From: a virus | Virus record (IMG/VR): IMGVR_UViG_3300032291_002992 | Location: 1 to 40,084 of that record | Reading direction: 5' to 3' (one strand) | DNA: 40,084 nucleotides | Shown: in pieces, positions 2,899 to 26,432 of the stretch | Layout: the number at the start of each line of letters is the position of its first letter | Position numbering within the stretch: position 1 is the first letter of the stretch | Translations under genes and position numbers: made by a program | Notes under the pieces: generated by a model | Databases searched by the model: none | What the model was told of the DNA's origin: nothing | What the model saw: only the letters and a program-made list of their open reading frames with translations

Positions 2899-3342
2899 AT
2901 GAATCCGGATATACAAAAGCAGCGAACTGAAGACGTTCAGCGCATGAAAGATGCCCTGTCAAAAAGCGCCAACCTGCGCAACCTGGCACTCGAGGATCTG
3001 GAGGCACAGAAAGCCCTGGTGAACGGGATCAAGAAAATGCAACCAGGCGAAGTGATAGATCAAGCCCAGCAGCTGGAAAACATCATCCTCCCCAGGGTGC
3101 TGGCCAAGCACGGCCCCGAATCCACAGAATACAAGTTTTGGAAAGGCGTGCTGGATTCGCTGAACTGGCTGCTGCACATCACTGACTATTCGATCCGGCT
3201 GGAAGAGCGGATCATCAGGCACCGCCACAACCTGGACTACTACAAAAATCTGACGGTGCGCCTGGAAAGGGAGCTGGAGCACTATACCACCGTTGACCGC
3301 GTAATGACAACTGACCTTATAAATTCTTACACCAAGGCATGA
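2899..3342 (+). CDS. Hypothetical coiled-coil protein ahead of the helicase
   Basis: A 147-residue, highly charged helical protein read from the ATG at 2899, directly after the previous stop. Residues 10-55 and 110-140 contain heptad-like patterns with many Glu, Lys and Leu, consistent with coiled coil. Its stop overlaps the ATG of the helicase gene (3339), so the two are translationally coupled and may act together, for example as a loader or accessory of the helicase; that is inference. No family recognised. Confidence 0.55.
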   Translation: MNPDIQKQRTEDVQRMKDALSKSANLRNLALEDLEAQKALVNGIKKMQPGEVIDQAQQLENIILPRVLAKHGPESTEYKFWKGVLDSLNWLLHITDYSIRLEERIIRHRHNLDYYKNLTVRLERELEHYTTVDRVMTTDLINSYTKA

Positions 3343-5528
3343 TGGATCTGGATATACTCGACATAAACCCAACTGACAACTGGAGCGAAGAGAAAAAGAG
3401 ATTCTTTGACCGGCTGCATATACTAACTGCCAGGATCGTTGACAAGAAGATTGACATAACCAGCAATCTCGGCGTTGATTACTATTTGATCCGCTACACC
3501 TACGCTGCCTATGCGGAAAGCAAAGAGGCAAACACCATGTTTCATAAGGTTTGCAGCTTGGCGGCTGACTACCATTATGACCGCTGTGAGGATGAATACC
3601 AAAAAGCCATACCTAAAACTAAATTCAAAACCCTCAGAAAGCTGCTGGAGATCTGCAAATTCCATGGCATCGATACAGATTTTGAAGACGAAGCCACGCC
3701 CGGGGATGCCAGGCAATGCGATTTCCTGCCAGAGGGGGTGAATGAAGAGTTCTTTGATACATACGGATTTTTTGAAAAGAACAACCAGTACTTCACACTG
3801 GAACCTGCCGGAGCAAACAAATACAAGGCGGTGGCTTTTTCAAACTTTGTGATGTATGTGAACTTTCACATGAATAATGGTATCCAGGCAAAGCGGATTA
3901 TTACCATCACCAACATCAAGGGCAAGCGCAAAACGGTAGACATCCCCACGGATAAGCTGGTTTCCCGCAATGAGTTCAAGAAGTTCTGTGAATCCCTGGG
4001 CAACTTCAGGTTCTTTGGTTCAGACGGTAAACTGGATATGCTCAAAGCTTACCTATATGAGCAGGAAAGGGAATGCGCTGTAATCTCTGAACTTGGCTGG
4101 CAGGGAGATGATAAGTTTTGGGCCTGGAGCAATGGGATCTATACCAATAAGTTTCATGCCCTGGATAAGAACGGCTACGTTGAGATAAATGACAAGCACT
4201 TCTACATTGCAGCCGGTAACACCGAGCAACCCAACCGGGTGCGATCTTACAGTGGCCAGATCCGATTCCGCCACTTTGTAGATCATCATGTTACATTTAC
4301 GGAGTATGCTTCGCTGTACTGCCAGGTGTTTCCTACCAATGGTGCAATCATACTATCCTTTGCCATAGCGTGCCTGTTTTCAGATATTGTATATGAGGCT
4401 AAAAACTTCTTTCCGCTGCTTTTCATTTATGGCGAGGGTGGATCAGGCAAGGGGTCTGCCATCAAAATGGCCCAGCGGATGTTCGGCGTTCCCCAGGATC
4501 CACTTACCCTGGTAGGCAAGGCGAACACCGATAAGTCAAAAATTGCTCTTTTTGCTCAGTACCATAATGGCCTTCTTCTTCTGGAAGAGTACGTACCCAA
4601 CCATGATACAGATCAGTTTCTTAAAAATCTGTGGGATAGATACGGCTATAAGCGCAGAACCCTGGATATGGGGTATAATACGGAAAGCGTGCCGATCACA
4701 TCATGCGCTGCGATCACTGCCAACTTCACCCCATCAGATGATCCGCTACTGCAACGGATGATCTACCTGGATCACAATACCAACCAGTACAGCCAGGATG
4801 CTCACCAGCTGTTTAACAAACTGAAAGTGTACACGGAAAGAGGGGTAACCCATTGCACTCATGAATTGCTTTCAAAAAGAGTAGCTGTTGAGAATGAGTT
4901 TCTTGATGTTCAGATGGCCAACTACAAAGAGATAAAGTCCAAGTCAGCCATGGCTCATTGTACTGACCGGATGATTGAGAATATATCGGTACTGGTTTCC
5001 ATATACCAGATCCTCAGCGATCACAACATAGTATTCCCATTCACCAGGGAATACCTGATCGATGAACTGGTGGCTACCACGGCCAAGCAAAATGAGAAAA
5101 GAGATAGCGGCGGCGAGGTGCAGAAGTTCTTTGACATCTTCCAGAGTGCGGTTCAGAAAGGTGATCTGATCGAGGATGTTCACTATAAGCTGGATGAGCG
5201 CCATCTGTTCCTAAACGTGAAGCAGGTTTATTCAACCTATGCCATCTACCACCGGAATTTCTATAACCAGGCTGGCCTGAGCTTACCCAATCTACGAGAC
5301 AAGTTGAGGGTGCACAATGCTTACTCTGGATACAAGGATTCCATCAGGGTAGGGAATAGCAACACCAGTGCTTTTCTCTTCCACTATGATAAGATCGGAA
5401 TTGACCTGATATCGGCTACGTCGATATACAAGGGGGCCAGAAGTTCCAGAAACAATATGCAGCAGAGCTATGAGGATAAGGTCAGTAATCAAAAAGGATG
5501 GGAGCCGGCCGATGGGCCGATAGGTTAA
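3339..5528 (+). CDS. SF3/DUF927-like phage replication helicase
   Basis: A 729-residue protein. The P-loop GEGGSGKG is at residues 365-372 and is followed by a hydrophobic strand ending in two Glu (LLLLEEY, about 412-418) as Walker B. A later Ser/Thr-Ala-Ala-Ile-Thr-Ala-Asn stretch (about 455-465) fits a sensor motif. The ATPase region resembles DUF927-type and superfamily 3 phage helicases, which unwind the phage origin. The N-terminal 330 residues have no visible primase motif, so this seems to be a helicase with a family-specific N-terminal domain rather than a primase-helicase. It lies immediately upstream of the iteron-rich candidate origin and a DnaA-domain gene, fitting an initiation module. 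Helicase call is good; the exact family is less certain. Confidence 0.7.
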   Translation: MMDLDILDINPTDNWSEEKKRFFDRLHILTARIVDKKIDITSNLGVDYYLIRYTYAAYAESKEANTMFHKVCSLAADYHYDRCEDEYQKAIPKTKFKTLRKLLEICKFHGIDTDFEDEATPGDARQCDFLPEGVNEEFFDTYGFFEKNNQYFTLEPAGANKYKAVAFSNFVMYVNFHMNNGIQAKRIITITNIKGKRKTVDIPTDKLVSRNEFKKFCESLGNFRFFGSDGKLDMLKAYLYEQERECAVISELGWQGDDKFWAWSNGIYTNKFHALDKNGYVEINDKHFYIAAGNTEQPNRVRSYSGQIRFRHFVDHHVTFTEYASLYCQVFPTNGAIILSFAIACLFSDIVYEAKNFFPLLFIYGEGGSGKGSAIKMAQRMFGVPQDPLTLVGKANTDKSKIALFAQYHNGLLLLEEYVPNHDTDQFLKNLWDRYGYKRRTLDMGYNTESVPITSCAAITANFTPSDDPLLQRMIYLDHNTNQYSQDAHQLFNKLKVYTERGVTHCTHELLSKRVAVENEFLDVQMANYKEIKSKSAMAHCTDRMIENISVLVSIYQILSDHNIVFPFTREYLIDELVATTAKQNEKRDSGGEVQKFFDIFQSAVQKGDLIEDVHYKLDERHLFLNVKQVYSTYAIYHRNFYNQAGLSLPNLRDKLRVHNAYSGYKDSIRVGNSNTSAFLFHYDKIGIDLISATSIYKGARSSRNNMQQSYEDKVSNQKGWEPADGPIG

Positions 5529-5564
5529 CAAAAGTGGGTGTAGTTCAAAAACCCCTCCATTTGC

Positions 5565-5794
5565 AACCCAACAGAACCCAACAGCCTTTAAATAGATAAA
5601 TAATTAATAATCAATAAATAATAAAGTAAATAAAAGACTAATCGTGTTGGGTTCTGTTGGGTAGTGTTGGAAACGCCTACCCCAAACCCAACAGTTCCCG
5701 ACAAAAAATAGCCACTTTCCCAACAGTCCAAAAATCAAAACCCTTGTCCGTAGCGGGTTTCATAACTGTCGGGTTCTGTTGGGTTTGTTGGGTT
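5565..5794. other. Candidate replication origin: iterons plus AT-rich segment
   Basis: A non-coding interval (5529-5824) holds about ten copies of a 10-bp motif, AACCCAACAG or its complement CTGTTGGGTT. Forward copies are at 5565-5574, 5575-5584, 5685-5694 and 5717-5726. Reverse copies are at 5644-5653, 5654-5663, 5664-5670 (partial), 5766-5775 (one mismatch), 5776-5785 and 5786-5794 (nine bases). Several are exactly tandem. Between the first two groups, 5586-5640 is almost pure A/T and would melt easily. Iterons flanking an AT-rich unwinding element, next to a helicase gene and a DnaA-domain gene, are the hallmarks of a replication origin. No standard TTATCCACA DnaA box is seen. Confidence 0.65.
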
Positions 5795-5824
5795 GGTTTT
5801 AGCCCTTCTTCACCTAAAAAAACA

Positions 5825-6337
5825 ATGTTTTTTATGATTATCTCAGTCTACGCCATCCCCGGAAAGAAGTACACGGAGCCCCTGCCGTCTACCCTTAACC
5901 GGTTAAGACCAGATGAAATGGTCCAGCAAATTAAAAGTGCTGTGCTGCATTATTTTAAAATGACACCTGACGAGGTTTTCCGTAAGTGCCGAAAGCGGGA
6001 GCTGGTACTGGCCCGTCAGATCATGCACTACCTGGCTAAAAAGTACACTTCGCTATCCCTGATAGGTATTGGCGCGGAGTTCCCCCACAAATTAGCCTTT
6101 GACCACACATCTATACGGCACTCCATTGAGACTGTGTTGAATCTGATGGAGACAGATGCCAATGTCAGGAGCCAGGTGAATGCCATCGAATTCAACATGG
6201 GCTGTGATCACAATGAACGGGTAGTAATTGTCACCAATCAGCAACAGATAAAAACCATCGTAAAAAAAGAGCTGGTTGAACAACTAAGGTCAATGACCAT
6301 ATCCGAGCACGAAAAAGTAATGAGTAAATATTTATAA
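5825..6337 (+). CDS. Stand-alone DnaA domain IV-like protein, putative origin-binding initiator
   Basis: A 170-residue protein from the ATG at 5825 (another at 5834). The open frame extends back to 5657, but that part only translates iterons. Residues 32-110 match DnaA domain IV: a basic KCRKRELVLARQIMHYLAKK helix, then SLSLIGIGAEF, then FDHTSIRHSIETV with the Asp-His-Thr signature at residues 93-95 that contacts DnaA boxes. The AAA+ domain of DnaA is absent, so it can bind DNA but not hydrolyse ATP. The C-terminal 60 residues are family-specific. Lying directly downstream of the iterons, it is a strong candidate to bind them, either starting replication with the upstream helicase or repressing it. 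Confidence 0.7.
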   Translation: MFFMIISVYAIPGKKYTEPLPSTLNRLRPDEMVQQIKSAVLHYFKMTPDEVFRKCRKRELVLARQIMHYLAKKYTSLSLIGIGAEFPHKLAFDHTSIRHSIETVLNLMETDANVRSQVNAIEFNMGCDHNERVVIVTNQQQIKTIVKKELVEQLRSMTISEHEKVMSKYL

Positions 6338-6349
6338 AACCACTGCAAC

Positions 6350-7111
6350 ATGACACACAAACTTTCAGAAGTAAAAGTGTACGAAACAACCGACTACAGC
6401 CGCTTTATGCGAATCAACGGGAATCGGGCCCTTAATAACCTCAAGATCAAAAAAATGGTAAAAGACATAGGCGAAGGGTTGAATTTCTTGGCAGACTTCC
6501 CTATTGTGACCAGTGCTTACCAGACCAAGCTGCGCGTGCACGATGGTCAGCACCGGCTGGAGGCGGCCATAAAGGCAAAGAAGCCGGTTTTCTACATTGT
6601 CCGATCAGAGAAGATGGAGCTGGATGAAATGGCCAAGGTTAATTCGCTCCAGGAGAAATGGAAACCAAAGGATTTTGTCAACTGCTATATGGAGCGGGGC
6701 AACAAGGATTACGGAGTGCTGAATGACTTTGTAGATCAGTTTGAGGTACCTATCAATGTTGCGGCAAAGCTGCTGTTCTATGGGGTAACCGGCGCTTCGG
6801 ATTCAGGCAGTTCAAGTGACTTTCGCAGGATGTTCGAGGTAGGCCAATTCAAGGCCAAACATCTGAAGCAGGCCACGGAGATCATGGAGAGCTGCAAACT
6901 ATTCTCTGATTTTGATGGCTGGAATTCCCGCGGATTTATGGTAGCCATCACCAAAATTCTCCAGGCAGATAAGGTGGATTTTGACCAATTGGTAGAAAAG
7001 ATCAATAAGAATCTGGATATGCTGGAGCATCAAAAGAATGCCAAGGCTTATATCTGGAATCTGGAATCGATCTGGAATAAAGGCAAGCAGAAAAGGGAAG
7101 TTATCTATTAA
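6350..7111 (+). CDS. ParB-fold (DGQHR) phage protein
   Basis: A 253-residue protein. The N-terminal 100 residues have the ParB/sulfiredoxin layout: strands around FPIVTSAY, then VHDGQHRLEAAIKAKK with the nucleotide-site motif DGQHR at 65-69, then a strand (FYIVRSE). The rest is helical without a clear HTH. Such proteins occur widely in phages; some ParB-fold members bind or hydrolyse CTP, others act as nucleases or modification factors. It follows the DnaA-like gene by 12 bases and precedes a second ParB-family gene by 23 bases, so it belongs to the replication operon. Exact activity is unknown. Confidence 0.65.
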   Translation: MTHKLSEVKVYETTDYSRFMRINGNRALNNLKIKKMVKDIGEGLNFLADFPIVTSAYQTKLRVHDGQHRLEAAIKAKKPVFYIVRSEKMELDEMAKVNSLQEKWKPKDFVNCYMERGNKDYGVLNDFVDQFEVPINVAAKLLFYGVTGASDSGSSSDFRRMFEVGQFKAKHLKQATEIMESCKLFSDFDGWNSRGFMVAITKILQADKVDFDQLVEKINKNLDMLEHQKNAKAYIWNLESIWNKGKQKREVIY

Positions 7112-7134
7112 AAACATTTATTAAACCAACATTA

Positions 7135-9009
7135 ATGACAAACGCAACATTAGCGGTGCTACCGTTGGACAGAATTGTGTTCGATTCAAAGCAGCCGAGA
7201 AAGTTTTTTGACGAATCAGCGATGACAGAGCTGGTTAATTCAGTTAAGCAAGTAGGGATCCTGCAGCCGATAATGGTAAGACCTGGGAATCTCATTATGA
7301 CCAATAAGAAGACAAATAAGTGGGAGGATGGCTATACAGTAATCTGTGGAGAGCGCAGGCTTCGCGCAGCTTATGAAGCTGAGCTAACGGAAATACCGGT
7401 AGTGATCAGGGAAGGATTAAGCGAAGAGGAGATATTGGAGATCCAGATCACCGAGAACCTTCAGCGCAAAGACGTCAACCCTATGGAAGAGGCGGTGGCT
7501 TTCGATCAGCTGCTATCCAGGTTCAGCATTGAGGATATTGCCAACCGTGTGGGAAAGAGTGCACAGTTCGTCGCTCAGAGGCTTTCGCTTACCAATTTAT
7601 CCGACAAATGGCAGCAAGTTTTATTCGAGGGCAAGATAACGCTTACACAGGCCTATAAGCTGGCCAGAATCGCACCGGAGACACAAGATGAAGGTGCGAA
7701 GGAGTGCCTGGGTAAGGATGGGAGTATGAAAAATCAGTGGGCATTTAGTGATTTCATCCAAAATGAGGATCATAATCTGGATAATGCCACTTTCAAAACA
7801 GACGATGCAGACCTTTATCCAGAGGCTGGTGCATGCGGATCGTGCCGCTACAATTCAGCCAGCAACGCCCTTCTTTTCCCGGACCTGAAGAAAAGGATCT
7901 GCCACAATGGAGCATGTTGGTCCGTTAAAACCACACGCTCGTATAAGAAGTCAATAGCGGAAAAAATCTCCGATCCAACTATGTTGTTTGTGTCTACATG
8001 TTATTCACCGGACAAAGACGATAAATCCCAAATTAAAGCAGCAGAGGAGCTGGGGGCAACGGTTGTTTCTATTGATAAATTTGAGACGATTGAAAAGCCT
8101 GATGAGCCAGCGCCTTACGATGAATGGTTATCGCAAAGCAAGGAGGATAGCTATTTCGACGAGATGGACGAGAAAGAGCAGAAGGAGTTTTTAAAAGATG
8201 CTAAGGCCGAATATGCGGAGTATGAGCACCGGTATAAAGAAGATCTCGCCCAATACGAGCAGGACCTGAAGATTGCAATGAAGGCCTTTGTGGTGGCTGG
8301 GGATACCTGGAAGGGAAGGGCGGGTGAGATAGTTTACGTGAAGCCTAAAAAAGGTAAATCAAAGGAATTGGCAGAAGCATCCGGTAGCCAGGGGAATGCA
8401 GAGCTGATATTGATCAATGAGGAGATATCCGGCATCCAAACCAAAATGGAGCGCAACAGGGAGCTGGACCGGGAGAAGGTGATGAAGGTCTTGGTTGAGA
8501 ATCTAAAGAGCGAGGACGGTGGTTTCCTGACCTCAAAAGATTTCATTACCGGCTATGAAATACAGGCCTTAATCTTCTGCCTGGCGCAAGACTACCGGGT
8601 TAAAGAAGCCCTCAAGGAACTGCACGGAGTGGACAGCTCCGACTACTACCAACAGATCGACCTCTGGAATGCTATCTGCAGTTATGGGCTTTTGGTTAAG
8701 GATGTCAGCAAACTTCTTGGAATCGCAGCCCGACACTACATCCTTTCCCAACTGGCAAAAGGGGATCGAATGGATCCACAGAAATGGGGAAGTGCAGCCG
8801 CCTTACACGCAATTGCCTGCCAACACATGACCCTCACCGTTGAGAAGCTGGAAATAGATCAGAATGGCAAAGCCAGTAAGCGGGAAGCAACAATGAAAGC
8901 CAGGATAGAGGCATTGGAGGCGAAGAAAGCAGAGATCCAAGAGCAGATCACCCGCGAGAAAAACGAAGCCGCTTCCAAGAAAGCTCAGGCCAAGAATAAT
9001 AAAAAGTAA
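7135..9009 (+). CDS. ParB/RepB/Spo0J-family DNA-binding protein, extended
   Basis: A 624-residue protein, about twice the length of a chromosomal ParB. Residues 1-105 are a ParB N-terminal domain with the phosphate-binding box GERR (72-75), followed by ENLQRKDVNPMEEA. Residues 120-150 form a helix-turn-helix (SIEDIANRVGKSAQFVAQRL). Around 233-262 there is a Cys cluster (CGSCRYN, then about 17 residues, then CHNGAC) that could bind zinc. Residues 330-390 are acidic coiled coil and the end is a Lys/Ala-rich coiled coil. ParB proteins load on parS-like sites for plasmid or phage partition; here the role could be partition of an episomal prophage or regulation. No ParA ATPase is seen nearby, which argues against simple partition. 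Confidence 0.7.
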   Translation: MTNATLAVLPLDRIVFDSKQPRKFFDESAMTELVNSVKQVGILQPIMVRPGNLIMTNKKTNKWEDGYTVICGERRLRAAYEAELTEIPVVIREGLSEEEILEIQITENLQRKDVNPMEEAVAFDQLLSRFSIEDIANRVGKSAQFVAQRLSLTNLSDKWQQVLFEGKITLTQAYKLARIAPETQDEGAKECLGKDGSMKNQWAFSDFIQNEDHNLDNATFKTDDADLYPEAGACGSCRYNSASNALLFPDLKKRICHNGACWSVKTTRSYKKSIAEKISDPTMLFVSTCYSPDKDDKSQIKAAEELGATVVSIDKFETIEKPDEPAPYDEWLSQSKEDSYFDEMDEKEQKEFLKDAKAEYAEYEHRYKEDLAQYEQDLKIAMKAFVVAGDTWKGRAGEIVYVKPKKGKSKELAEASGSQGNAELILINEEISGIQTKMERNRELDREKVMKVLVENLKSEDGGFLTSKDFITGYEIQALIFCLAQDYRVKEALKELHGVDSSDYYQQIDLWNAICSYGLLVKDVSKLLGIAARHYILSQLAKGDRMDPQKWGSAAALHAIACQHMTLTVEKLEIDQNGKASKREATMKARIEALEAKKAEIQEQITREKNEAASKKAQAKNNKK

Positions 9010-10159: not shown

Positions 10160-10414
10160 ATGAAAAATGACATCCCTATCTTTTCGCCAACGCCAAACCT
10201 GACCAAACAATGGTTGGATGACTTTATTGATGACGGATTGAAGAAGCTTCCATACGCCACAGTATTGGTTATTCATCCGGATGATCACGCCTCCACAGGA
10301 ATAGGTAAGTACCAGTATAGAAAGTTGAAGATTCAGGTACATCGCTGGACGCCTCCAGGCAGTGTGTATCTGACAACAAAGAAACTCTGGAACGATTCAT
10401 TTTATAAACCATGA
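10160..10414 (+). CDS. Hypothetical small protein upstream of integrase
   Basis: An 84-residue protein with aromatic and Pro-rich segments (PIFSPTPNLTKQWLDDFIDD, VHRWTPPGSVYLTT). Its stop overlaps the integrase start (ATGA at 10411-10414), so it may be translated with the integrase. A recombination directionality factor would be expected near the integrase and be of this size, but nothing in the sequence shows that. Confidence 0.5.
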   Translation: MKNDIPIFSPTPNLTKQWLDDFIDDGLKKLPYATVLVIHPDDHASTGIGKYQYRKLKIQVHRWTPPGSVYLTTKKLWNDSFYKP

Positions 10415-11988
10415 AAAAAGCCATCCGCTACCTCCGCATCTCCAAAGAGAAGCAATCCAACTTTTCACTGGATGCTCAGGATACCTACACGCGCGGATGG
10501 TGTGAGCGTAACGAAGTAGAGGTCAGCGATACCTTCATTGATGATGGCTACACAGCACAAAACTTTGACCGCCCAGATTTCCAAAAGCTCGAAGAATTCA
10601 TCCGTCAATTCCACCGTAGGGTAGACTACCTGGTGGTGAACTCATTCGACCGGTTCTCCCGCGATGCTGGGGAGGCGCTGATGAAGATCAAACAGCTCCA
10701 GAACAAATACTCCATCTCAATCGTGTCCGTAGTGGAAGGGGTGACCTTCGACCGGAACGATCCCGGCTCTTTCTTCTACACCGGTCTGCTGCTGCTGAAG
10801 GGTGAGGATGAGCTTATCCGCCACAAGTACCGCATCAACATGGGGATCTATACCGCCAAAAAGAAGTTTGGCAGATACCTGGGCAAAGCGCCTTGGGGGT
10901 ATATCAACTTTAAAGAGGATTCTGGCCGCCCCATGATCAAGCCAGATCCCGAAAAGGCCGAGGTGATCAAATACATATACAAGCATTTCCTGCTGGGAGT
11001 ACCTTTCTACATCATCCGGGATGACGTGCGGAACATGGCCGGCGACATCATCAAGTCCAATTCAGCTATGCAGCGGATCCTCGCCAACCCTGCCTATACA
11101 TCTTACCTAAACGTGAAGCCAGTGCGGGATCTTCCGGGCGGCATGGTGGACGGATGCTGGGAGCCAATTATCGATCGGCCTACCTGGCACATGGTTCAGG
11201 AAAAGATCAAAGGAGGTAATCAGAAAATCATTATAGACGATCAGCTGCCCCTGCGAGGGGTGCTAAAATGCCACTGTGGAAAGATGCTTACCGGGGCCCC
11301 CTCAAAAGGCAAATCAGGCGCGTGGTTCTACTATTACAAGTGCACCCAGCCACACAACAACCTATCTGCCAAGAAAGCCCACACGCAGCTGTCTGAAGCC
11401 CTTGCCTACCTTTCCCTGCCTGCCAATATGATAGCCAGTATCAACAGCTATGCCGAGGAAACCATGGCCGCCAGATTGCGTGAAAACCAGGTTCTGATCG
11501 AATCCAAGCGCCGGGATCTGGTGAGCTTGGAAAAACAGATCCACAACCTGGAGGAAAAGTATATCCTGGACAAGATCCAGCACGATACCTATTTCCGCTG
11601 GCACTCCGAGTTCACCCAAAAAAGGGTAGATATCCGGCATCAGATGGACAGGCTCGCCGCCGATCAGAGCGAGGCGCTCCTGCTCCTGCGCTCCGAACTG
11701 CCCAAACTGACAGACTTGAAAGGGGTGTACGATCTGGCCAGTACGCTTCAGAAGCAAAGCCTGGTAGGGGAGGTGTTCGATAGACAATTGTACTACCGTG
11801 AGGGGGCTTATCGAACACCCTACATCATGCCGGTATTTCTCCGGAACACCTTGATTTTAAAGGGAAAAAGCCTACTGATTTATGAAGGAAGTTCACAAAA
11901 ACAGCAGGCTTTCCCATCAGGTGGAGCTGCTGGAACTGTAATCGAACACCTCACAAGCTTCCTACAGATCATCCGGAAGATCGCGTGA
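10411..11988 (+). CDS. Large serine recombinase (phage integrase)
   Basis: A 525-residue protein. The N-terminal resolvase domain (1-150) has YLRISKEKQ with the nucleophile Ser11, the DRFSRD motif, and the long connecting helix. A recombinase domain follows (about 165-280, GYINFKEDSGRPMIKPDPEKAEVIKYIYK). Then comes a zinc-ribbon-like region (LRGVLKCHCGKMLTG, then YYYKC) and a coiled-coil segment (about 365-440), the hallmark of large serine integrases. It would insert the phage at attB and, with a directionality factor, excise it. The zinc ribbon is odd: the first pair is Cys-X-Cys rather than Cys-X2-Cys, and the usual fourth Cys appears replaced by His. A candidate attP lies just downstream. 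Confidence 0.9.
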   Translation: MKKAIRYLRISKEKQSNFSLDAQDTYTRGWCERNEVEVSDTFIDDGYTAQNFDRPDFQKLEEFIRQFHRRVDYLVVNSFDRFSRDAGEALMKIKQLQNKYSISIVSVVEGVTFDRNDPGSFFYTGLLLLKGEDELIRHKYRINMGIYTAKKKFGRYLGKAPWGYINFKEDSGRPMIKPDPEKAEVIKYIYKHFLLGVPFYIIRDDVRNMAGDIIKSNSAMQRILANPAYTSYLNVKPVRDLPGGMVDGCWEPIIDRPTWHMVQEKIKGGNQKIIIDDQLPLRGVLKCHCGKMLTGAPSKGKSGAWFYYYKCTQPHNNLSAKKAHTQLSEALAYLSLPANMIASINSYAEETMAARLRENQVLIESKRRDLVSLEKQIHNLEEKYILDKIQHDTYFRWHSEFTQKRVDIRHQMDRLAADQSEALLLLRSELPKLTDLKGVYDLASTLQKQSLVGEVFDRQLYYREGAYRTPYIMPVFLRNTLILKGKSLLIYEGSSQKQQAFPSGGAAGTVIEHLTSFLQIIRKIA

Positions 11989-12048: not shown

Positions 12049-12579
12049 ATGAGGACATTTGCGGTTAACATTCCCACCAAATCTTATTTGAGGAAATATC
12101 TGCATAAACGCTACGGCTACCCTGTGGTGATCAACAACCGCACCTTGATCGGGTCGGTACTTGTGGCATTCCTGAATAAGAAAATTTACTCCGACAGATC
12201 CAACGCTACAGATCTGTTTAATACCTACGCCAATCTAAATGATCGGCTGGAATGCGTAGTAGCGCAGAATGAAGTTTTTTTCGGCACTACCGGTCTACAG
12301 ATCGATCCCGCCAAGGTCATCGTGATTAACCGGTACTTTTCTGCTCAGTTCGAGGAAGATGTACACCGGTTCTGCCTGCAGAACATCACCAGTAACGGCA
12401 AGCATCCCGGCTATGATCGCGCCCTGGAGAAATTTGCCGAGATGTTCGACATAGAATTTGACGTTGACATCACCTTTGAGGCATTGAAAAAAATGGAGTA
12501 CCGCTACCGGAAAAAGTTGGAGCAGAATTTAACCGCAAATGTCCCCGCATCAAAATGCCTGCAACAGGCTTTATTTTGA
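12049..12579 (+). CDS. Hypothetical protein after the integrase
   Basis: A 176-residue soluble protein, rich in Tyr, Asn and basic residues, with a helical second half (ALEKFAEMFDIEFDVDITFEALKKMEYRYRKKLEQ). Residues 50-70 (SDRSNATDLFNTYANLNDRLE) look helical. No signal or membrane segment. It is the last gene before the late block and its end contains a terminator-like hairpin. Family not recognised; regulatory function possible but not shown. Confidence 0.5.
   Translation: MRTFAVNIPTKSYLRKYLHKRYGYPVVINNRTLIGSVLVAFLNKKIYSDRSNATDLFNTYANLNDRLECVVAQNEVFFGTTGLQIDPAKVIVINRYFSAQFEEDVHRFCLQNITSNGKHPGYDRALEKFAEMFDIEFDVDITFEALKKMEYRYRKKLEQNLTANVPASKCLQQALF
12557..12577 (+). terminator. Terminator-like hairpin at the end of the early block
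   Basis: GCCTG (12557-12561), loop CAA, CAGGC (12565-12569), then TTTATTTT. It overlaps the last codons of the preceding gene and lies 11 bases before the first TGTCCTTTC element, so it would separate early from late transcription. Confidence 0.5.
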
Positions 12580-23245: not shown

Positions 23246-23583
23246 GGAAAATCCGCTGTTACTCCGTGAGGCTTCAAAGCCTCCGGAGCATATCCGATAA
23301 GGCTTTTTTAGCCAAAGGTTTCGATGGATCTGAAGCCATCATACCTAAAAGCCAGGTACTATGTCCAGATGATGACGTGCAGAAAAGTGAGGCATATTGG
23401 ATCTCAGCGTGGATACTCGAAAAAAAAGAGCTTCAATATAGCACGAAAAAAGAAGGCTGGTTCAATCCATCTACCTACCGAATAGAGCCAGTGATCACCA
23501 CGGTGGTTGAGCGTCATATACCGACAAAAATAGAGCCCAAAAACATTTTACCAGATGATTCCCTCGTTAGAAATCCAATCTGA
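23239..23583 (+). CDS. Hypothetical cassette protein 2
   Basis: A 114-residue protein from ATG 23239 (a TTG at 23233 is also in frame). The core FDGSEAIIPKSQVLC, followed by YWISAWILEKKEL, resembles a small domain seen in phage proteins near replication and helicase genes, with a Pro-Lys-Ser-Gln turn and an aromatic helix; the resemblance is from memory and unverified. It overlaps the helicase gene by 29 bases. Possible helicase partner. Confidence 0.5.
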   Translation: MVGKIRCYSVRLQSLRSISDKAFLAKGFDGSEAIIPKSQVLCPDDDVQKSEAYWISAWILEKKELQYSTKKEGWFNPSTYRIEPVITTVVERHIPTKIEPKNILPDDSLVRNPI

Positions 23584-24763
23584 GGCCATTAGCCGCCTTC
23601 AGTCACTAAAGGTAGGCGCACTATTCATGAGGCCGGGAACGGGCAAGACAAGGCCCGCCGTGGAGCTTGTGAATAGCGTTTATGTGGATCGTTGTATTTG
23701 GCTGGCTCCATTTCAATCAGTTAATCCTCCAATTGAAGGATCAGGGATAGCGGACGAGGTGGATAGGTGGGGGATGAATTGCCCGGTAGAATTTGTGGGT
23801 ATTGAGACGCTGAGTAGCAGCGATAGGGAGTATTTAAGATTGTTGGAGATGGTCAAGCGGGAACGGGTATTTCTGGTTTGCGACGAATCGCTGAAAATCA
23901 AGAATTGGGATGCCATCAGAACCAAGAGAATCATCGAACTATCGAGAGAGTGCGAATACAAGCTGATCCTGAATGGCACGCCGATCAGCCGCAATTTGCT
24001 GGATTTGTGGGCACAACTGGAGTTCTTATCTCCGCTTATCCTGCGGATGCAGCAGGCGGAATACAAACGCACATTCTGTGAGACGGTCAAGATAACCAAG
24101 TACAAGGGCAACAGGATCGTTAATCAGCGGGAGTTTATCGCTGGATACCACAATATCGACTACCTGTACAGCATCATCAGCCCTTATATCTACGAAGCTG
24201 ATCTGCATTTGGATGTTGGGGAGCAGGACATTGATCTGGAATATAAGCTGGAAGACGATTTGCAGGCAGAATACAACCGATTGAAGGAACTATATCTTGA
24301 TAATGAGGTGCTGATGCGGATGAACAATAATATCTTTTTAGAGATGACGCAGAAAATGCAGCACATCTACTGTTGTGCAGAAGATAAGTTCACTATTGTC
24401 AAAAAACTACTAACAACGATAGATCCAGAGCGAACGATAATTTTTTGCAAATTCATCAGCAGCCAAGAAGAGTGTCGAAAGGCTTTCCCAAAGTGCCAGA
24501 TATTGAGTTTACAGGCCAATTCTTATAGCTTGAACTTGCAGCACTACCACAACACCATTTACTGGGATCACACCTGGGATTGGGCAGTAGTTGATCAGAG
24601 CAGGCATAGGACAAAGCGAACGGGGCAGGATCAACCGCTGAAATTCTACCGATTGAACGGCCCGAAATTGGACTTGCTGATGGCCAAAAACAATGAGAAA
24701 AAACAATCAATGCTCCAATATCTGAAAGGGAAAACAGGGGCACAAATCAAAGAAGAAATATGA
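23555..24763 (+). CDS. SNF2-type helicase/translocase
   Basis: A 402-residue protein. Motif I is PGTGKT (27-32, Lys31), motif II DES (110-112, VFLVCDESLKIKN), motif III LNGTPIS, and near the end DQSRHRTKRTGQ is motif VI of SNF2/SWI2 proteins with the Arg fingers. It is compact, lacking the large insertions of chromatin remodellers, and resembles phage SNF2 proteins. It would translocate on double-stranded DNA using ATP. Its stop overlaps the IbrB-like start (ATGA at 24760), so the helicase and ParB-like product are made together, consistent with one DNA-acting complex. Confidence 0.8.
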   Translation: MIPSLEIQSEAISRLQSLKVGALFMRPGTGKTRPAVELVNSVYVDRCIWLAPFQSVNPPIEGSGIADEVDRWGMNCPVEFVGIETLSSSDREYLRLLEMVKRERVFLVCDESLKIKNWDAIRTKRIIELSRECEYKLILNGTPISRNLLDLWAQLEFLSPLILRMQQAEYKRTFCETVKITKYKGNRIVNQREFIAGYHNIDYLYSIISPYIYEADLHLDVGEQDIDLEYKLEDDLQAEYNRLKELYLDNEVLMRMNNNIFLEMTQKMQHIYCCAEDKFTIVKKLLTTIDPERTIIFCKFISSQEECRKAFPKCQILSLQANSYSLNLQHYHNTIYWDHTWDWAVVDQSRHRTKRTGQDQPLKFYRLNGPKLDLLMAKNNEKKQSMLQYLKGKTGAQIKEEI

Positions 24764-25320
24764 ATAAAGAATTCAGAAGTCCGGTGTACAGTGTGATCGC
24801 AGTTCCGCTGGACAAAATCGAGGCCAATGATTACAACCCTAACCATGTTGCCAAAAGGGAAATGGATCTGCTGTACCAGTCGATCAAGTGCGACGGCTAT
24901 ACAATGCCCATTGTCTGCTATTATGACGATGTCCGCGACAAATACGTGATCGTTGATGGTTTTCACCGCTATACCGTGATCATGAGGTACAAGGACATTT
25001 TCGAGCGCGAAAAAGGTATGTTGCCGGTGTCAGTCATTCAGAAGGATATCAATGACCGAATGGCTTCCACTGTCAGACACAACAGAGCCAGGGGTAAGCA
25101 TGATGTAGAATTACAGGCTTCATTGGTGGGGATGCTGAAAGCCGGGTGGGATGAATTGAAGATCATGAAAGAGCTTGGAATGACGCTGGAAGAGGTGCAG
25201 AGACTTATAGGCTTGAAGGGGATCGCCTCAGAAATTAAGGGAGTGCCATATTCTATTGAACGGCAGATCGTTGAGGCAGGGGAAGACATAAAACCGGACG
25301 CATGGGAAGAACAGCGGTAA
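24760..25320 (+). CDS. IbrB-like ParB-fold protein
   Basis: A 186-residue protein. Residues 10-75 show the IbrB-type ParB pattern IEANDYNPNHVAKREMDLLY, then SIKCDGYTMPIV, then VIVDGFHRYTVI with DGFHR at 66-70. This is followed by NDRMASTVRHNRARGKHDVE, a very distinctive stretch of IbrB relatives. The C-terminal half is helical with a possible HTH (DELKIMKELGMTLEEVQRLI). In E. coli, IbrA and IbrB form a prophage-borne pair first linked to expression of immunoglobulin-binding proteins; their biochemical role is unsettled. Its gene overlaps the PAPS-reductase-like gene by 19 bases. Confidence 0.8.
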   Translation: MNKEFRSPVYSVIAVPLDKIEANDYNPNHVAKREMDLLYQSIKCDGYTMPIVCYYDDVRDKYVIVDGFHRYTVIMRYKDIFEREKGMLPVSVIQKDINDRMASTVRHNRARGKHDVELQASLVGMLKAGWDELKIMKELGMTLEEVQRLIGLKGIASEIKGVPYSIERQIVEAGEDIKPDAWEEQR

Positions 25321-26432
25321 GGGGTGTGGAAAATGTGCTGGAAGCAGCGGAGAAGCGGGTGGCGTGGTTGTTCGATAACTACGACAACATCCAGCTATCG
25401 TTTTCGGCTGGTAAGGATAGCACCGTGCTTTTCCATTTATTGAACGAAGAGGCAAAAAAAAGAGATCGGAAATTCATCCTCTACTTTCAGGACCAAGAAG
25501 CCGAATACCAGGCTACCATAGATCTTGTAGAATGGGCAATGAGCCAGCCCAATGTGATCCCTTTGTGGTACCAGGTCCCGATCTTCATGACCAATGCGGC
25601 CAGCCAGCAGCAGCTTTTCCTTTGGGCTTGGGGTACAGAAGAAAAGTGGGTAAGAGAAAAGCATCCATTGGCTATCCACTCGATTGATGTGAAGTACCCA
25701 CGGCGGTTCCATAAGTTTAACTTATGGGTTGGCCAGCAGTTGAGAAGGCGAGAAGGGAAAAGTATATCAGTGATTGGTTTACGGGCTGAGGAAAGCCCTG
25801 ACCGGAGATTTGTGATGTTTGGTGAGGATAGTGAGATGTTCTGGATTCGCAAAAAAAACGAGCCTCACAGGGCTTATCCTATCATTGACTGGCTTTACCG
25901 GGATGTATGGAAATACTTGATTGAAGGCGGTTTTCTCTATAACAAAATCTACGACAAAATGTACATGCTTGGGCACGACATTCGAACAATGAGGGTGTCA
26001 AACTTAGTTCATGAAAAGGCTTTTCGATGTCTGGCAGATTTGCAAGAATTAGAGCCAGATACTTACGATAAGCTGGAGGAGAGGTTGCAGGGCGTTCATA
26101 CGGCAGCAATTTACGCTAAGGAAAACCTGATGTACTCAATCAAAAGCTTACCGGATCGGTTCAATAGCTGGAAGGAGTATAAAGACTTTTTACTGCAAAG
26201 CATCCACCCAGACTTAGCTAAATTATTTGCCTATCAATGGAGCCGTTTCGGAAACACAGATGATGTGGGGGCTTGCAAGTACATGGTGAAGCGTATTCTA
26301 CTCTGTGATTGGGAGGGCAGTATCACCTGGGCGCGGGACTATGAGTTCAATTACTCAAAGGATCAGATTTTGCAAAAGAATGTGTTGAAAAGAGAGGATC
26401 AGATCATTAAAAAATGGATGGAAAGCTTATGA
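25302..26432 (+). CDS. IbrA-like phosphoadenosine phosphosulfate reductase family protein
   Basis: A 376-residue protein. The P-loop of the PAPS reductase/adenine nucleotide alpha hydrolase fold is SAGKDS at residues 35-40 (variant of SGGKDS), then strand FILYFQDQEAEY. Further on, VIGLRAEESPDRR and YPIIDWLYRDVWKYL match PAPS-reductase-type enzymes such as DndC and IbrA. The C-terminal third resembles the DUF3440 extension of IbrA. These enzymes activate substrates with AMP; DndC does so in phosphorothioate modification of DNA. Paired with the IbrB-like gene and a SNF2 helicase, it may modify nucleic acid or regulate host genes. The substrate cannot be read. Confidence 0.75.
   Translation: MGRTAVRGVENVLEAAEKRVAWLFDNYDNIQLSFSAGKDSTVLFHLLNEEAKKRDRKFILYFQDQEAEYQATIDLVEWAMSQPNVIPLWYQVPIFMTNAASQQQLFLWAWGTEEKWVREKHPLAIHSIDVKYPRRFHKFNLWVGQQLRRREGKSISVIGLRAEESPDRRFVMFGEDSEMFWIRKKNEPHRAYPIIDWLYRDVWKYLIEGGFLYNKIYDKMYMLGHDIRTMRVSNLVHEKAFRCLADLQELEPDTYDKLEERLQGVHTAAIYAKENLMYSIKSLPDRFNSWKEYKDFLLQSIHPDLAKLFAYQWSRFGNTDDVGACKYMVKRILLCDWEGSITWARDYEFNYSKDQILQKNVLKREDQIIKKWMESL

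Follow-up and report, generated by a model that had tools for sequence, protein, structure and literature searches.

According to PMC7581432, SaPI Rep recognises iterons located directly 3′ of its own gene via its carboxy-terminal domain. The isolated carboxy-terminal domain of Cch2 likewise binds its iteron origin, which lies downstream of the Cch2 operon (PMC7581432). For the P4 α protein, which comprises a Toprim-type primase, a carboxy-terminal winged helix binds short repeats in the origin (PMC4234260). Here we analyzed a stretch of viral DNA of 40,084 nucleotides (IMG/VR record IMGVR_UViG_3300032291_002992), termed the window, in which an array of 10-bp iterons in both orientations (5565–5794) is located between a helicase gene and the gene of a stand-alone DnaA domain IV (DnaA-IV) protein. 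We consider it likely that replication of the phage starts in the interval 5529–5824, with the helicase encoded directly upstream as its initiator.

The helicase gene (3339–5528, plus strand) encodes 729 residues matching phage primase/helicase families (PHROG 22657/1139). Its AlphaFold model, with a mean pLDDT of 86, consists of an AAA+ core and a carboxy-terminal winged helix at about residues 594–690 (5118–5408, plus strand), confirming by predicted fold that the gene preceding the array encodes a helicase, as the sequence-only reading had stated, and placing it among AAA+ proteins. Modelled alone, the winged-helix fragment adopted the same fold with a pLDDT of 87, both models exhibiting the order helix–strand–strand–helix–helix–strand–strand. 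We propose this domain, with its wing at residues 662–682, as the iteron reader of a self-loading initiator. The best PDB match of the helicase in Foldseek was SCCmec Cch (PDB ID: 5dgk; E = 9.7e-14), and SaPIbov1 Rep (PDB ID: 8tch) was matched at E = 1.6e-11, these two matches comprising about 590 columns. The isolated winged helix retrieved mostly winged-helix domains, all with non-significant E-values. At the sequence level, Pfam and PDB searches yielded no detectable similarity to SaPIbov1 Rep, there was no DUF927 match at E ≤ 0.1 and no D5 match, and no primase domain was found in the window helicase. As the kinship is apparent at the fold level only, we did not file the helicase in the DUF927-type (Cch/SaPIbov1 Rep) sequence family. 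The helicases of the window and of four related loci (L041, L042, L005, L017) have 714–736 residues and lack the amino-terminal DnaG-like CHC2/Toprim primase that is fused to many of their relatives (e.g. L006, L066).

With the SaPI Rep-ori system the window shares, as proposed here, a self-loading AAA+ initiator helicase, an iteron origin directly 3′ of its gene and a carboxy-terminal reader, whereas the window family occurs in Bacteroidota, both in tailed phages and in mobilizable elements, uses other iteron sequences and exhibits the fused DnaG-like primase in many of its members. SCCmec Cch, the closest structural match, is comparable in that the Cch2 origin is also iteron-based and lies 3′ of its operon, but the window is a phage element with a bidirectional multi-block array and no DUF927 match. 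P4 α may resemble the window in its helicase with a carboxy-terminal winged helix, predicted in our case, and its Toprim-type primase has a counterpart in many relatives, although not in the window helicase itself; no P4 α structure was among the Foldseek matches listed. DnaA at oriC is reflected in the domain IV fold encoded by the neighboring gene, but this protein lacks an AAA+ domain, DnaA boxes are missing and arrays also occur without any DnaA-IV gene. The replicon is best described as working like SaPI Rep-ori and P4 α-ori, with a helicase outside those families by sequence.

Within 5565–5794, the iteron AACCCAACAG is present in four exact and four one-mismatch copies. At up to one mismatch, the 40 kb contain 13 matches, eight of them in this segment, compared to a mean of 2.7 in shuffles of the whole window, none out of 100 reaching 13. 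Two further degenerate iterons (5695–5704 and 5717–5726) result in a total of about ten. Similarly, the most frequent 9-mer in a 300-bp window occurred nine times against a maximum of three in 100 dinucleotide shuffles. The array starts about 37 bp past the helicase stop codon with block A (5565–5584, plus strand), two exact tandem copies of AACCCAACAG. An A/T-rich spacer of about 55 bp (about 5587–5641; GC content of 0.15 in a 60-bp window), the proposed unwinding element, separates it from block B (5644–5663, minus strand), formed by two tandem copies of opposite orientation with one mismatch each. Block C (5685–5726, plus strand) comprises an exact copy at 5685–5694 along with the two degenerate ones, and block D (5766–5794, minus strand) three copies starting at 5766, 5776 and 5785, with a spacing of 10 and 9 bp. 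Exactly tandem pairs with a 10-bp step are found at 5565/5575, 5644/5654 and 5766/5776. Counts and shuffles thereby corroborate the earlier description of about ten repeats in both orientations, partly in tandem, beside a roughly 55-bp A/T stretch, and the interval 5529–5824 proved to be non-coding as stated. The reported absence of a normal DnaA box also held, with no TTWTNCACA in or near 5529–5824 and two in the whole window versus four expected. Binding of host DnaA to the array was rejected, as boxes are absent there. The GC skew of the window was uninformative.

Searching IMG/VR with the DnaA-IV protein, the helicase or the ParB-like protein alone as query, we found no close relatives. 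The helicase has relatives in phages of Flavobacterium, Cellulophaga, Porphyromonas and ‘Microcystis’. Scans with a helicase alignment yielded 24 genomic and 33 viral loci, every helicase locus being gathered via the helicase itself. To detect arrays, 300-bp windows were searched for 9-mers that recur on both strands, with a threshold of at least six iterons on both strands, which was passed by 6 out of 7396 background windows. Most helicase loci contained an array, usually directly 3′ of the helicase and in most cases starting within about 200 bp of its stop codon, with several loci showing a distance of 2–6 kb. The recurring layout consists of a minus block, the A/T spacer, a plus block, a minus block and a plus block; this block order was observed in 27 of 55 arrays, and most of the remaining ones gain or lose a block. 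Iteron steps within blocks were about 8–11 bp, peaking at 8–10 bp. The iteron sequence, in turn, differs from phage to phage: L041 and L042 have TGTCAGGTT, the cultured Flavobacterium phages laban6-1 and FPSV-D35 carry an array of TGTTGAGAA after a homologous helicase gene without any DnaA-like gene, and further loci exhibit TGTAGGAAG, TGTCCGAAC, TGTCAGAAG, TTGTAACCG and more, TGT being common to many of them. Dozens of phages and mobile elements of Bacteroidota hence exhibit this arrangement of repeats, although the repeats themselves differ in sequence. Six Flavobacterium loci (L026–L028, L034, L035, L037) have nothing but the helicase and the array in common with the phages and look like mobilizable elements; among those tested, L034 and L035 encode a relaxase, L034 also MobC. 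A separate CHC2/Toprim primase gene is present in L026, L027 and L037, the short primase of these elements being encoded 3′ of the array. As a separate observation, the helicase cores of L005 (Microcystis phage Mea-Yong924-1) and L017 (a Sphingobacteriaceae MAG) are about 99% identical; the stated Microcystis host is questionable, a host among the Bacteroidota being more probable.

To which of the two flanking genes the array belongs was assessed by comparing loci containing only one of them. An array reaching the threshold of six iterons on both strands was present in 45 of the 58 helicase loci without DnaA-IV, but within 1.5 kb in only 2 of the 64 phage loci that have DnaA-IV and lack the helicase (Fisher p = 5e-19, with loci that are not fully independent). 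Based on these counts and on the mobilizable elements sharing only helicase and array, we assign the array to the helicase. The claim of an iteron-containing origin is well supported, whereas its second part, DnaA-IV as the initiator, is not supported, with arrays following the helicase; among loci without the helicase, DnaA-IV-only genes beside iterons, for which a search of other phages had been suggested, amounted to these two cases. DnaA-IV gene, helicase and array occur together only in the window, L041, L042 and L052, where DnaA-IV is in all four cases the first gene after the array. This also applies to L052, although its array is located 5.6 kb from the helicase.

The DnaA-IV protein (5825–6337, plus strand; 170 residues) contains PF08299 (Bac_DnaA_C) as its only Pfam domain, the E-value of 2.4e-16 having been obtained on a longer TTG-initiated reading frame, whereas the gene itself starts from the ATG at 5825. 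Together with phmmer matches to 1J1V and other DnaA structures, the DHT motif and the lack of an AAA+ domain, this agrees fully with what the sequence-only reading had noted for this gene. It retains the equivalents of R399, L422, D433, H434 and T435, which we take to be base-contact positions of E. coli DnaA domain IV, while the P423 equivalent is an isoleucine; L041 and L042 have a lysine there. An amino-terminal YxIPG motif is common to the DnaA-IV proteins of the window, L041, L042 and L052. A fifth DnaA-IV protein with YxIPG is encoded at 8001–8285 of L087, a 39-kb record without the helicase.

L041 is the closest relative of the window; their helicases are 68% identical and the A/T spacer is largely identical, and yet the iterons have all shifted together (TGTTGGGTT versus TGTCAGGTT). 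The best reading is that the iterons of an array shift specificity together, as a whole. We next correlated iteron distance with helicase divergence in a strand-free Mantel-type analysis of 40 representatives, with the rest of the protein partialled out. The highest partial correlation was obtained for residues 641–690 (r = 0.305), followed by residues 131–180 (r = 0.27), with Mantel-type p values being inflated by shared ancestry. As this ancestry is common to every helicase segment, the informative part is the ranking of the segments: the region 611–690 came first in 70% of subsamples and residues 131–180 in 27%. The single best column, residue 675, is located inside the wing, and the recognition-helix columns 646–660 alone gave no signal with iteron distance. 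At the level of sequence comparison, iteron divergence thus appears to follow the wing of the winged helix more closely than other parts of the helicase. The site change previously ascribed to DnaA-IV did occur, in concert across the array, but iteron divergence is tracked by that of the helicase, above all in the carboxy-terminal winged helix.

That DnaA-IV is instead the origin-binding initiator, having exchanged the DnaA box for the 10-bp iteron as its site and recruiting the helicase, appears improbable. Its position as first gene past the array in the window, L041, L042 and L052, the contact positions retained except for P423 and an iteron that keeps the ACA/TGT end of the DnaA box would all be consistent with this role. 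However, 45 helicase loci lacking DnaA-IV have arrays of the same layout, such arrays are essentially absent at DnaA-IV genes without the helicase, and the TGT end is also frequent in iterons of phages lacking DnaA-IV. Less remote, though well short of an even chance, is a scenario in which both proteins bind the array and DnaA-IV modulates initiation or autoregulates its own operon from a promoter in or beside the array. The array lies directly 5′ of the DnaA-IV gene, and L041 and L042 share both the iteron and the lysine at the P423 equivalent, the window having another iteron and isoleucine. With only four such proteins beside arrays, the three sequences compared are nevertheless too few to establish covariation, and the L041 and L042 proteins are only 33% identical.

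DnaA-IV could also possibly act on the host, as a DnaA-box competitor blocking host initiation or DnaA-regulated genes, to which we assign a similarly modest likelihood. Stand-alone DnaA-IV genes commonly occur in phages that have neither the helicase nor an array, and DnaA boxes are not in excess in the window, but the placement of the gene directly past the array at four loci argues against it. Finally, we rejected as highly improbable a role of the array as centromere or operator of the ParB-like proteins, whose genes lie at 6350–7111 and 7135–9009. Although ParB_N and HTH_ParB domains are encoded just 3′ of the array, L041 and L020 were the only other loci in which the 6350 gene was found, and none yielded the 7135 gene, whereas arrays are general and occur in relatives lacking these ParB-like genes. 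Based on sequence comparison and predicted structures, the most likely reader of the origin repeats is the initiator helicase of the phage itself rather than the DnaA-like neighbor. The DnaA-IV protein is probably accessory, most likely an optional DNA-binding regulator of the origin, the downstream operon or host DnaA sites.

A self-loading initiator-helicase replicon of Bacteroidota phages, resembling SaPI Rep and P4 α, is the best reading of the locus. The carboxy-terminal winged helix of the helicase would bind the 10-bp iterons in both orientations, and oppositely facing hexamers would probably form around the A/T spacer. The spacer would melt, allowing the helicase ring to load itself on the single strands and subsequently unwind outward. 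As the DnaG-like domain present in many relatives is missing from the window helicase, primers would be supplied by the host or a separate primase. Iteron and winged helix changing together would provide each lineage with a private origin. More tentatively, and with clear doubt as to the whole, the window may represent a widespread, sequence-distinct but fold-related branch of self-loading initiator helicases in Bacteroidota, in phages as well as in mobilizable elements, with a conserved layout, all iterons of an array shifting with the wing and, in one small lineage, a captured DnaA-IV as second reader of the array.

The about 50 origin–helicase pairs, with conserved geometry and differing sites, constitute a natural series on the joint specificity change of an initiator and its array, and the arrays offer origins that can be tested, for mobile elements as well as phages of Bacteroidota. 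A limited literature search yielded no paper on iteron origins of Bacteroidota phages.

Besides the array, the helicase loci share a family of about 160–200 residues, found at 12049–12579 of the window, 6040–6549 of L068, 9308–9820 of L051 and in 30 other loci, often as first gene after the array and without a PHROG or significant Pfam match. This conserved family (about 170 residues; 33 loci) was rejected as iteron reader, as no member was detected in the mobilizable-element loci. The window further encodes a large serine integrase (10411–11988), suggesting a temperate phage, and, in a row at 23555–26432, a SNF2-related helicase, a ParB-like protein and a PAPS-reductase/DUF3440 protein. A different array style was observed in Cellulophaga phage phi19:3 (L012, about 7001–7300), where seven AACCGATAC repeats, all on the same strand as opposed to the bidirectional iterons, are located inside a gene 5′ of the DnaC-like loader gene.
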